23,598 nucleotides of DNA, from positions 1 through 23,598 of the IMG/VR virus record IMGVR_UViG_3300042502_000824. One strand, given 5' to 3'. The notes under the pieces are model-generated. The model saw only the letters and a list, made by a program, of their open reading frames with translations. It made no database searches and was not told where the DNA came from. The stretch is from a virus. Below, piece by piece: positions 2,192-18,457 of this stretch (the stretch's first letter is position 1; each line of letters starts with the position of its first letter). Position numbers and translations under genes: made by a program.

Positions 2192-3877
2192 ATGGCGGAT
2201 CAAACCACAGAGCATCCACTTATTCAGCACAAGTATGGAATTCGTTCTCCGGTCAAGATTCCTGACCTTGAGCTAGAGCTTTACGCATTCCGAAACCGAC
2301 TCCAGCCCAATGAGGGCGGACTAGGTACTTTCAACCATTTTGTTAACGCCACCAAAATGCTCTGGCCAAAGATGAGCTGGAATCCGTGGCTTGAAAATCA
2401 AGCAGAAGACCTATGTGAGCATGACTACGTTGGGTGGGCAGGATGTGGCGCGTCCGGCAAGACCTTTGGGGCAACACTTTTCGCTACCGTCTGGTGGTTG
2501 GCCAACCCTGCCAAGTCAACGGTTGTCCTGACATCGACGACCGCGAAGATGATCCGAAAGCGTATGTGGGCCAATCTTCAGGATCTGGTCCGTAAGTCTC
2601 GCGGGTTCCCAGGCAACATGGTCGATTCCAAAATGGCCTTACAAGCTGTCAAAGGTGACGACCGCCATTCCATTTCCGCTATCGCCGTCGCCGAAGGAAA
2701 CACCTCGAAGGCAGTGGCCAACATCCAGGGTATTCACGCCGAGCGGGTGATGGTCATCATCGATGAGGCGACGGACACGCCCGAAGCAGCTTTCGAGGCT
2801 TGTACCAACCTTTCCAAAGGTTGCCGCGAGTTCAAGATGTTGGTTATCGGTAATCCGGCATCGAAGTACGATCCACACGGTCGATTCTGCACACCGGCAA
2901 AGGGTTGGCGCAGCGTAACGATTGAAGATCAGCATTGGCTGACCGAACGTGGCATGTGCCGACGATTCGACGGCATGAAGTCGCCCAACATCAGCGAAGG
3001 GCGAACGAAGTACCCATACCTTATAACGCATGATCAGGTGTTATCCGCTATGCGACATGAGGGTGAGCAAAGCCCTACGTTCTGGAAGTACACGCGCGGA
3101 TTCTGGAGTCCTGACGGCATGGTCAAGACGGTGTTGTCCGAATCACTGATCGAGACGCACACACCTACAAGAAAGTTGACGTTTACCACAAATGTCCAAG
3201 TCGTTGCCGGTCTTGACCCAGGCTTTGGTGGCGACAGATGCGTTCTTCGCTTCGCCAAGGTTGGCACAGCAAACGACAAGGTGAGCATACTTTTTCAGGA
3301 TATCGTCCAGATATCCCCAAACGCTCAGCTAACGGAACCAGTTCACTACCAGATAGCCAACCGCGTCAAAGAGGAGTGCAGCAAGCGCGGCGTGTCGCCC
3401 GATAGGTTCGCTCTCGATTCAAGCGGTGAGGGTGGTGGTCTTGCAGATATTCTGACCCGCGAATGGGGCGTCGTTCATCGCGTTGAGTTTGGCGGCTCTC
3501 CGTCAGCCATTCCGGTCAGCGATGAAGACAGTCGGCCATGCAATGAGGCATACGACCGCAAGGTGACTGAACTATGGTTCTCGATGCGTAAATGGGTTGT
3601 CGAGGAGCGTGTTGGAGGAATGGACATCGAGACTCTTCAGGAGTTCTGCGCGCGCATGTTCGACGATTCCAAGCGGAAGATATCGGTCGAATCCAAGACC
3701 GTGATGAAGCAGCGAACCGGCAAATCGCCTGACTTGGCCGACGCAGCTACAGTCTTGCTTGATCTAGTCCGAAAAACCGCTGTCCTCGAACCGCGAGCAA
3801 CCAGAATGGATAAAGTCTGGGAAAAGCTCGTTCGGGATGCCGATTCAATCTACCACGACGAAACTATCGAAGAATGA
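2192..3877 (+). CDS. terL: Terminase large subunit (packaging ATPase/nuclease)
   Basis: The 561-residue protein drives DNA packaging through the portal and cuts the genome. The ATPase domain shows a Walker A motif (GCGASGKT, residues 84-91) and Walker B (VMVIIDEATD, 186-195, with Asp191-Glu192). A coupling-motif-like VIGNP follows at 218-222. The C-terminal RNase H-like nuclease is marked by GLDPG with Asp342, FALDSSGEG with Asp409, and DLADAA with Asp514 and Asp517. Length is normal for the family. The start at 2192 has an A-rich leader and no Shine-Dalgarno. It overlaps the next gene by 4 bp. The likely small-subunit partner lies about 13 kb away on the other strand, which is not the usual arrangement. 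Confidence 0.93.
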   Translation: MADQTTEHPLIQHKYGIRSPVKIPDLELELYAFRNRLQPNEGGLGTFNHFVNATKMLWPKMSWNPWLENQAEDLCEHDYVGWAGCGASGKTFGATLFATVWWLANPAKSTVVLTSTTAKMIRKRMWANLQDLVRKSRGFPGNMVDSKMALQAVKGDDRHSISAIAVAEGNTSKAVANIQGIHAERVMVIIDEATDTPEAAFEACTNLSKGCREFKMLVIGNPASKYDPHGRFCTPAKGWRSVTIEDQHWLTERGMCRRFDGMKSPNISEGRTKYPYLITHDQVLSAMRHEGEQSPTFWKYTRGFWSPDGMVKTVLSESLIETHTPTRKLTFTTNVQVVAGLDPGFGGDRCVLRFAKVGTANDKVSILFQDIVQISPNAQLTEPVHYQIANRVKEECSKRGVSPDRFALDSSGEGGGLADILTREWGVVHRVEFGGSPSAIPVSDEDSRPCNEAYDRKVTELWFSMRKWVVEERVGGMDIETLQEFCARMFDDSKRKISVESKTVMKQRTGKSPDLADAATVLLDLVRKTAVLEPRATRMDKVWEKLVRDADSIYHDETIEE

Positions 3878-16134: not shown

Positions 16135-16665
16135 TTAGTAATTGGCTGGAAGATCGTCCGTCAGCTCTGACTGCTCCGCCATGTACGAGCTGTATCCTTT
16201 GAGTAGGCCAAGTTTGTGAGGTTGGATGATATGCTCTCTGGCGATGAAGCCTCTGAATGTGTACGGGCCGGGAAAAGTGCCAGTCATCAGAACATAGAAA
16301 TCAACAGCCTCAGTTTTCACACCCTTACGCGCATCGACCAGTAGCTTCCCATTGTCGTACTTGGTCGTTTTGACATCGATGCGGAATCCCGGCGGAGGCG
16401 GGATGACCGCGTCGTAGAGCGGATGCGGAGGCTCGCGGTCGGTATCAATGTCGGGATACACATTGAACAGGCGACAGAAAGCCAGCTCGCCAGCAATACC
16501 CTCAAGATCGACCGTATGCGGATCTTCCGCGCTGATCTTTAGATTCGTAACGTTGAAATAGCGGTTATTGCCATTTCGATTCTTGGCGACGTAATGGGCC
16601 AGCTTCTGCTCTGCTGTCGATAGAAATACTTTTTGACCTATTTTAATTTTATTTATCATGGTCAA
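16135..16665 (-). CDS. PD-(D/E)XK-like nuclease
   Basis: A 176-residue protein. DLEGIAGELAF (53-63, Glu60) gives the early helix with its acidic residue, YDAVI (84-88, Asp85) the motif II Asp, and FRIDVKTT (94-101, Asp97 and Lys99) the D-x-K motif, followed by strand KLLVDARKG and DFYVLMTG. This order is the core of restriction-endonuclease-like phage nucleases. Possible roles are genome trimming, host DNA cleavage or processing of packaging intermediates; none can be chosen. Start at ATG 16665; Met3 would be an alternative. It lies between the small-terminase-like gene and the capsid gene. Confidence 0.72.
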   Translation of the reverse strand: MTMINKIKIGQKVFLSTAEQKLAHYVAKNRNGNNRYFNVTNLKISAEDPHTVDLEGIAGELAFCRLFNVYPDIDTDREPPHPLYDAVIPPPPGFRIDVKTTKYDNGKLLVDARKGVKTEAVDFYVLMTGTFPGPYTFRGFIAREHIIQPHKLGLLKGYSSYMAEQSELTDDLPANY

Positions 16666-16717
16666 AAAGGCGGAAAATTTTTGAGGGGGTATCGTAAACG
16701 AAGCCCACCCGCAAAAG

Positions 16718-16728
16718 GGGTGCCACCC
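16718..16728. promoter_or_regulatory. Small palindrome, operator candidate
   Basis: GGGTG-C-CACCC is an 11-base dyad about 50 bases upstream of the nuclease start. A further CACCC at 16706-16710 could pair with the same GGGTG, making two mutually exclusive hairpins. Protein binding or attenuation are both possible; no conserved operator family is recognised. Confidence 0.3.
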
Positions 16729-16777
16729 TGCCAGTCAAAAAGTGTGCCAACCCCTAGGAAAAACAATCCTTTTCTAT

Positions 16778-16815
16778 CATTAGCTAATCTAATCCAATCT
16801 ATTAGACAGCTAATG
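16778..16815. promoter_or_regulatory. Nested inverted repeat downstream of the terS-like gene
   Basis: CATTAGC (16778-16784) pairs with GCTAATG (16809-16815), and inside TCTAAT (16788-16793) pairs with ATTAGA (16801-16806) around a 7-base loop. It begins 21 bases after the leftward stop at 16836. There is no U-tract on either strand, so it is not a standard terminator; attenuator, RNA-processing site or DNA operator are open options. Confidence 0.5.
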
Positions 16816-16835
16816 CTGCACAAACACTGTTATAT

Positions 16836-17297
16836 TTACTTCGTTTCGGATTCGCTCACGACTTGCACCTCCGCGATTCTGTCCGGCATCGAACCGAGAA
16901 GGTTGATTGAGACTGACGCTGCTTCGCCTTGCTCAGACCAGCCAAACACCAAAGCGGAACGCTTTGCGACGCTTCCTAGGATAGTCTCCCTCACGCTCTC
17001 GTCTTTTATCCCGTCCAACGAATAGCCTTCGATGCGTTCCAACGTGCTGGCGGCATCGGCCGCTAGCTTGTTTCGGACGAGAATTGAAAGCGCCTCGATT
17101 GAGTTTTCCGTTTTAAGAGATTTATTCTCTTTGCAAACGGTTTGCATTTGCTTCCTTAACTTCGTCAATCCCGTCCGGCTTGCTTTGGTTTGCACCGTTT
17201 CAACGCATAGCTTCAAATCGCTTGCAATCGTCGACAATTCTTCCCCGGCAAGATATCGGGCCGACACTGTTTCCCAGACTTCACTTGGTTTCGCCAT
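16836..17297 (-). CDS. Terminase small subunit-like HTH protein
   Basis: A 153-residue protein. Residues 1-45 form a helix-turn-helix of the AGEELSTIASDLKLCVETVQ type followed by a basic helix (KASRTGLTKLRKQ), the usual DNA-recognition part of small terminase subunits. The middle is helical (60-115), and the C-terminus has SALVFGWSEQGEAAS, then INLLGSMPDRIAEVQVVS, a pattern I recall from podovirus small terminases. That subunit recognises the packaging site and regulates the large subunit. The gene is 13 kb from the large subunit and on the other strand. A plain transcription regulator is an alternative. Confidence 0.6.
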   Translation of the reverse strand: MAKPSEVWETVSARYLAGEELSTIASDLKLCVETVQTKASRTGLTKLRKQMQTVCKENKSLKTENSIEALSILVRNKLAADAASTLERIEGYSLDGIKDESVRETILGSVAKRSALVFGWSEQGEAASVSINLLGSMPDRIAEVQVVSESETK

Positions 17298-17482
17298 GCA
17301 TGACGGGTAGCCGTTTTCCGTTTCCCCGGCAATGCGCCGCTTGTGACGGCGCGAAAAATCCCCGTTTTCCTGAGGAATTCCGCATGTTTTCCCCTATCGA
17401 AAAAAAGTTTAGAAAACTTTGTTGACGCCGTTTTCCGGTTCGCCTAGCCTAGCGGCTCACGGTTGAATTTTAAATCGAACGC
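17298..17482. promoter_or_regulatory. Divergent control region with direct repeats
   Basis: This 185-base gap separates the leftward terS-like gene from the rightward accessory block. It holds three exact copies of CCGTTTTCC (17311-17319, 17362-17370, 17428-17436), a GCGCCG/CGGCGC hairpin (17334-17352), and an AAAGTTT/AAACTTT dyad (17404-17420). The third direct repeat lies inside the promoter spacer. It could be an operator region or the packaging recognition site of the adjacent small terminase, which in several phages lies next to that gene. Confidence 0.55.
17422..17450 (+). promoter_or_regulatory. Sigma70-like promoter for the right block
   Basis: TTGACG (17422-17427) and TAGCCT (17445-17450) are separated by 17 bases. 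The -35 matches the consensus at 5 of 6 positions; the -10 keeps the key TA and final T. The palindrome at 17404-17420 ends directly upstream, and a CCGTTTTCC repeat lies in the spacer, so binding there could block transcription. It precedes the first gene of the right block by about 32 bases. Confidence 0.5.
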
Positions 17483-17668
17483 ATGAAAACACTCCAGATT
17501 GAGAAAACCTCTTCGGGACAATTCCGATACCGCATCGTCCGATACTTCGAAGACTTGGCGAAGACTTGCGTCGTCGTCGTCGATTGGGAATTCGGCCCAT
17601 TCAATCGGGAAGAAACGATTGAGCAAGCCAAAGAGCGGTTCTCTTTCGATGAAATCCAATCCCTTTGA
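17483..17668 (+). CDS. Small protein, first gene of the right block
   Basis: A 61-residue protein starting MKTLQIEKTSSGQFRYRIV. It looks like one small alpha/beta fold: two or three strands (QFRYRIVRYF, TCVVVVDWEFG) followed by a helix (REETIEQAKERF). No family recognised. The start ATG is preceded by a low-GC, Shine-Dalgarno-free leader (TTTTAAATCGAACGC). It begins with MKTL, close to the MKTI of two genes downstream. Probably early expressed from the promoter at 17422. Confidence 0.65.
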   Translation: MKTLQIEKTSSGQFRYRIVRYFEDLAKTCVVVVDWEFGPFNREETIEQAKERFSFDEIQSL

Positions 17669-17785: not shown

Positions 17786-18457
17786 ATGAACGTTCACCTA
17801 ACTCTCAAATCATCAAACGTCAAAACCGGCCCTATTCCGGTTTCAACGTCGGCCGCCGATACCTGCCCGGAAGCCTGCCCATTCAAGAAAGACGGTTGCT
17901 ATGCTGACTCCGGACCGCTTGCGCTTCATTGGTCTAAAGTGACAAGCGGTCAACGCGGTTTTGATTGGTCCGCCTTCCTGTCCAAAGTCCGCTCTTTCCC
18001 AGCTGGTCAATTATGGCGGCATAATCAGGCGGGTGATTTACCGGGTGTTGGTGATTCAATTGACGCAACCGCACTAGATGAACTCGCAACCGCAAACACC
18101 GGCAAGCGCGGTTTTACTTACACCCATAAACCGTTGACACCCGACAATCTGTCCGCAATTCGGACCGCCAATGAGCGCGGTTTCGTTGTCAATCTGTCCG
18201 CCAATTCGGTGTCGCATGCTGACACCCTTGCCAAGACAGGCCTCCCGGTTGCGGCCGTTGTCCCTCAGGACAGCGCGGACCGTTTCACCACACCCGATGG
18301 AAACCGCGTAGTTATCTGTCCGGCCCAAAGGGTTGACGGGATATCCTGCAACACGTGCCGCCTATGCGCGAAAGGAAACCGTGGGTTCATTGTCGGTTTC
18401 AAGCCACACGGAACGGGTGCCAAACGGGTGCAACGCATCACAACGGCCGGAAATTGA
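17786..18457 (+). CDS. Gp88/DUF7227-like phage protein with Cys clusters
   Basis: A 223-residue protein starting MNVHLTLKSSNVKTGPIPV. Visible features are CPEACPFKKDGCYA (Cys29, Cys33, Cys39), a LWRHNQAGDLPG segment (73-84), RGFTYTHKPL, then VVPQD, FTTPDGNRVVICPAQ (Cys178) and a final Cys cluster GISCNTCRLCAKG (Cys186, Cys189, Cys192) before GFKPHG. This pattern fits the phage Gp88-type/DUF7227 proteins, whose role is unknown. The many Cys could coordinate a metal or an Fe-S cluster. It is preceded by a G-poor leader and followed by a structured intergenic element. The family name is from memory. Confidence 0.7.
   Translation: MNVHLTLKSSNVKTGPIPVSTSAADTCPEACPFKKDGCYADSGPLALHWSKVTSGQRGFDWSAFLSKVRSFPAGQLWRHNQAGDLPGVGDSIDATALDELATANTGKRGFTYTHKPLTPDNLSAIRTANERGFVVNLSANSVSHADTLAKTGLPVAAVVPQDSADRFTTPDGNRVVICPAQRVDGISCNTCRLCAKGNRGFIVGFKPHGTGAKRVQRITTAGN

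Follow-up and report, generated by a model that had tools for sequence, protein, structure and literature searches.

In the phages lambda, 21 and N15, differences in the N-terminal recognition helix of the small terminase (TerS) match differences in the adjacent repeated R sites and set packaging specificity (PMC4669245). The lambda-like TerS binds to the R sites of cosB (PMC4669245), and in P22 the pac site lies in the TerS gene (review PMC9611059). Small terminases follow the order HTH, helical core, flexible tail, and in headful phages the binding of TerS to pac has proved weak and difficult to quantify in vitro (review PMC9611059). How TerS chooses phage DNA is poorly resolved, and in the population described here a reading domain and the DNA next to it have been re-paired dozens of times. 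Phage immunity cassettes consist of a repressor plus its operators, and promoters are known that carry upstream phased A/T tracts or UP elements; both are compared with this locus below.

Here, we propose that about 48 bp of DNA abutting a TerS-like gene, which change together with the N-terminal HTH of its protein across phages, are therefore probably the site that this HTH recognises. The DNA analysed (the window) is a 23,598-base IMG/VR record (23.6 kb) from a phage group that is abundant in metagenome collections. A preliminary description had noted a repeated 9-mer, CCGTTTTCC, a dyad and a promoter beside the TerS-like gene, and had read the repeats either as a packaging site bound by the TerS HTH or as a repressor array for the block to the right. 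Its observation is right and its interpretation half right, with the packaging-site idea moving, in our reading, to the 48 bp that abut terS. Three scans of viral contigs for TerS-like proteins gave about 200 loci of relatives (themselves up to about 45 kb), of which 124 were distinct and 121 were taken into the linkage and tree tests. The genes and the element are as follows:

2192–3877, plus strand: large terminase (phrog_2, E 6.9e-23)
16135–16665, minus strand: next gene of the leftward block, PF19161 (DUF5843; E 3.5e-10)
16836–17297, minus strand: TerS-like gene, 153 aa, with Terminase_5 and PHROG small-terminase matches among 78 relatives
17154–17297, minus strand: N-terminal HTH, codons 1–48 of the TerS-like protein; the other half of the proposed cassette
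17298–17346: TerS-linked element, some 48 bp that adjoin the TerS-like start codon and co-vary with HTH type
17483–17668, plus strand: first rightward ORF, 61 aa, without a family match

The TerS-like protein is likely a phage small terminase, although the matches behind this assignment are weak. For the protein encoded in the window itself, no family match falls below E 0.01. Among the 78 relatives, Terminase_5 is matched weakly by 32 (best 3.6e-5) and PHROG small-terminase families are matched weakly by 29, 26, 17 and 5 (best 1.8e-5), while the HMM matches of the relatives' proteins also include transcription regulators and GcrA. AlphaFold2 models a three-helix HTH (helices 4–16, 21–27 and 32–42) at a pLDDT of about 87, followed by helices 44–91 and 100–113 at about 65–74 and a tail below 50. 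This modelled order, in which a confident HTH is followed by a long helix, another helix and a low-confidence tail, is that of small terminases (PMC9611059). A search of viral structures placed small terminases among the closest matches, VIA-align and Foldseek returned matches to HTH domains, and searches of solved structures gave HTH matches only, with no small terminase among the matches listed. No other small-terminase match was present among 20 scanned proteins of one relative. Between types the HTH is hypervariable and the C-terminus is nearly invariant. In the relatives, the intergenic region that corresponds to 16666–16835, which separates the TerS-like gene from that of DUF5843, carries a AAAAGGATTGTTTTCCTAGGGGTT-like block on the minus strand in 26 contexts.

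The first 48 bp or so from the start codon are wholly different between groups of phages, and these groups are the N-terminal HTH types, of which the population holds nine, each with its own adjacent DNA element. Across 0–48 bp, similarity is 0.72–0.81 in pairs of the same HTH type and 0.40–0.47 in pairs of different type. This coupling falls sharply beyond about 56 bp upstream, and on the protein side it fades past the HTH, the C-terminal blocks being equally alike in same-type and different-type pairs. When HTH type is predicted from the most similar non-identical neighbour, the 0–48 bp segment scores 0.99 (chance 0.15), segments farther upstream 0.78–0.59, and the TerS C-terminal blocks 0.50–0.23. 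On a tree of the downstream DNA (121 loci), HTH type undergoes at least 64 changes, the element 58 and their joint labels 65, and the two labels occur in 15 of 117 possible combinations; on the same tree, the 60–140 bp segment and the HTH occur in 47 combinations with 88 joint changes. The remaining protein and the remaining intergenic region reassort freely.

Linked inheritance of adjacent DNA accounts for part of this coupling. That it is mere physical linkage without contact, with recombination joins happening outside both partners, seems to us very improbable. The element and the HTH are adjacent, exchange is frequent in the population, and one relative encodes RecE/RecT-like recombination proteins, as such an explanation would have it; however, joins are commoner at the HTH/C-terminus boundary (17 extra separations) and where the element meets the following 48 bp (8) than between the first 24 bp of the element and the DNA of the recognition helix (2), at similar distances. 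The second half of the element is tied more loosely to the recognition helix than the first half. Also against linkage alone, type 3 shares the CTTTGTCCCACAAAG element with some of type 6, although the HTHs of the two are otherwise less than 75% alike.

The TerS-linked element is single-copy in the window and in its relatives, and a search of about 0.8 Mb of loci for the motifs of six types, one mismatch being allowed, placed them at the element, with two weak matches elsewhere. The elements of types 0 and 3 contain inverted repeats (e.g. TACCTTGCAATCCAAGGTA and CTTTGTCCCACAAAG), which are not found in all types. An RNA hairpin in the TerS leader was considered and set aside, since types other than 0 and 3 are without dyads.

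The inverted repeats also suit the operator of a dimeric repressor, which is a point against a packaging role. The main rival to our reading is autoregulation, in which the element is an operator, the HTH protein controls only its own leftward operon and has no part in packaging, and cassette exchange keeps repressor and operator matched. We judge this unlikely, and it could coexist with a packaging role. The element adjoins the start codon, a place that would suit an operator covering the transcription start, types 0 and 3 have their dyads, and transcription regulators and GcrA are among the HMM matches. Yet the dyad is not in all types, small-terminase families are among the best matches, and a nearly invariant body joined to a hypervariable HTH suits a packaging partner. 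A repressor of the immunity type acting on the early promoter is itself unlikely, because the region of that promoter is only weakly tied to HTH type. The likeness to immunity cassettes is that DNA-binding specificity and its sites are exchanged as a single block; in contrast to them, it is the HTH half of the protein alone that is exchanged here, and a type-specific site is not seen at the early promoter.

On balance, and with modest confidence, we favour reading 17298–17346 and the first 48 or so TerS-like codons as an exchangeable recognition cassette, pac-like or cosB-like. In this mechanism, drawn from the comparative coupling, the HTH would bind the 48-bp element beside its own gene and so mark phage DNA for the terminase, the element serving as a pac-like or cosB-like packaging-initiation site. 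The constant TerS C-terminus would meet a constant large terminase and portal. The HTH and the element have been swapped jointly many times, with the TerS body held constant and the promoter region shuffled independently. The earlier idea that the TerS HTH reads DNA beside its own gene gains strong comparative support, for the 48 bp that adjoin terS and not for the CCGTTTTCC repeats.

This arrangement resembles that of lambda, 21 and N15 in that a recognition helix pairs with adjacent DNA (PMC4669245), here as seen through sequence coupling. In contrast to those phages, neither a cohesive-end site nor fixed genome ends were found here, at least nine types and at least 64 exchanges occur in one phage group, and the layout of half-sites varies by type. 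With the headful phages P22 and SPP1, the locus shares the size and predicted architecture of TerS, and the circularly permuted contigs fit; unlike in P22 and SPP1, the candidate site lies just upstream of terS, and terS lies about 15 kb from terL. Contig order among the relatives is circularly permuted on a map of ~43–48 kb, which fits headful packaging, and assembly from concatemers would yield the same pattern. Contig ends of the relatives do not build up in the region upstream of terS, which speaks against fixed genome ends near terS. A cluster of ends does lie about 1.0–1.5 kb downstream of the terS start, around the point where the next structural gene begins; their positions are scattered, and they are probably assembly breaks at that conserved gene.

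What, then, are the CCGTTTTCC repeats? The repeats and the promoter features are as follows:

17311–17319, plus strand: CCGTTTTCC copy 1, within the TerS-linked element; its core (17313) is 109 bp from the -35 box
17362–17370, plus strand: CCGTTTTCC copy 2; its GTTTTCC core (17364) is 58 bp upstream of the -35 box
17386–17392, plus strand: fourth GTTTTCC core, in ATGTTTTCCCC, 36 bp upstream of the -35 box; missed by the preliminary description
17404–17420: 7+7 dyad AAAGTTT-AGA-AAACTTT
17422–17450, plus strand: rightward promoter TTGACG-N17-TAGCCT (TTGACG 17422–17427, TAGCCT 17445–17450)
17428–17436, plus strand: CCGTTTTCC copy 3, in the promoter spacer

The three exact copies, at 17311, 17362 and 17428, are spaced by 51 and 66 bp as had been described, all on the plus strand, and the third does lie within the promoter spacer. 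Many copies elsewhere had been named as telling against a special role; there are none in the rest of the 23,598-base record. Without the relatives, a triple repeat of this kind is no more than mildly unusual for the window: local shuffling yields some 9-mer three times in 185 bp in 84 of 5000 trials, and shuffling of the whole window does so in 3 of 100. A second 9-mer, ATCTGTCCG, makes such a triple within 185 bp at 18147–18322 of the window, inside a DUF7227/GP88-like gene (17786–18457), and is probably coding repetition.

The GTTTTCC core is another matter. In 53 non-redundant intergenic regions of relatives it is present 45 times, where 3.2 copies are expected; 200 shuffles give at most 8, and the opposite strand of the same regions has 2. 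Per locus, this 200-bp bin averages 1.11 copies and every other bin 0–0.21. A by-type table places it in most HTH types, which makes it an unlikely TerS-specific site. At the position of copy 1, most other HTH-type-1 loci align with GCGGCTTTGG. On these two observations, CCGTTTTCC was rejected as the TerS binding site.

The core is tied instead to the rightward promoter. Measured in the relatives from the first base of the -35 box, TTTTCC peaks at -67/-68, -57/-58 and -35, and the centres of A/T tracts peak at -66, -56, -45 and -34, in steps of 10–11 bp. These T-tract positions hold whatever the HTH type, which points to promoter architecture, and copy 1 falls outside the phased set. In the window, the cores at 17364 and 17386 would be T-tracts helically phased with the rightward -35 box, a device separate from the recognition cassette, and may act as bent DNA or as regulator sites. 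They share with phased-tract and UP-element promoters the spacing of 10–11 bp upstream of a TTGAC/TAnnnT promoter; what differs is the strand-fixed, C-flanked GTTTTCC, which our searches place in this phage group only.

The spacer copy (copy 3) recurs in no more than 9 related loci, which are of HTH types 0, 1, 2 and 5, and goes with one promoter/first-gene cassette. With copy 1 inside the TerS-linked element and copy 3 tied to that single cassette, the three copies do not form one unit, and by this comparison the exact 9-mer triple combines three different things. An alternative, to which we give a low probability, is that all GTTTTCC copies form a single array for a repressor or activator of the rightward block. 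The enrichment is indeed strong and strand-specific and there is helical phasing to the -35 box, but, besides the separate affiliations of copies 1 and 3, the only positionally conserved copies are those around -58 and -36, joined in some relatives by one around -68, and phased T-tracts can work without a protein. Of the repressor array first suggested for the right block, what survives is the phasing of the cores at 17364 and 17386 with the promoter, copies 1 and 3 being separate; these two cores fit control of the right block, the repressor being hypothetical. For the most part, the repeat signal is promoter architecture of the neighbouring gene switch.

A promoter of the TTGACG-N17-TAGCCT type is kept in about 80 related loci, yet here it lies below the threshold of a sigma-70 consensus scan, which returned no promoter above threshold in this region. 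In the related promoters, TTGAC and TAnnnT are 17–19 bp apart (18 bp in 68 of 79) and stand upstream of unrelated first genes, and the promoter sequence is weakly tied to HTH type. The dyad that precedes the -35 box was rejected as an operator, being perfect in only 10 of 80 related promoters; it is the A/T character of this region rather than the dyad that the relatives conserve, and the dyad is more aptly viewed as belonging to an A/T-rich stretch in the upstream part of the promoter. The rightward block of one relative contains genes for RecT-like, RecE-like, SSB, helicase and primase proteins, and these replication and recombination functions suggest that the rightward promoter is probably an early promoter. 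In L287 (2922–4985), a relative of the right block, genes for a RecT-like annealing protein, a RecE-like exonuclease and an SSB-like protein are adjacent, and these may be a source of the extreme mosaicism of the group.

In many relatives, L012 and L019 among them, the intergenic region carries recurring AT palindromes such as TCAAAAATCGATTTTTGA, about 75–95 bp upstream of terS, which are absent from the window. Loci of types 3 and 4, and some of type 0, have other dyads (GTTCCACGTGGAAC, CCACAATGGATTGTGG) about 44–75 bp upstream of terS. Some of the loci with GTTCCACGTGGAAC/CCACAATGGATTGTGG dyads do not match the TTGAC/TAnnnT promoter, which suggests alternative promoter cassettes.

In light of the coupling between HTH and element, what might it mean for phage packaging? 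The findings suggest that packaging specificity diversifies by cassette exchange, as host range does. Tentatively, and with more doubt than belief, we propose that selection for rare types maintains nine or more interchangeable packaging addresses in this environmental phage population, an address being a TerS HTH and the element matched to it. One conceivable target of such selection, if it exists, is packaging by co-infecting phages or satellites, and the natural covariation would then spell out a TerS–DNA recognition code. The population offers at least nine matched protein–DNA pairs, naming both a site and the residues to test.

As to the wider relationships of the group, TerL matches among annotated relatives are all below 35% identity, and TerS has no match in the phage collection. 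The sole match to a bacterial genome is a short fragment lying at a contig edge in an Akkermansiaceae MAG (L283, CAILVZ010000353.1), a weak hint at a verrucomicrobial host.
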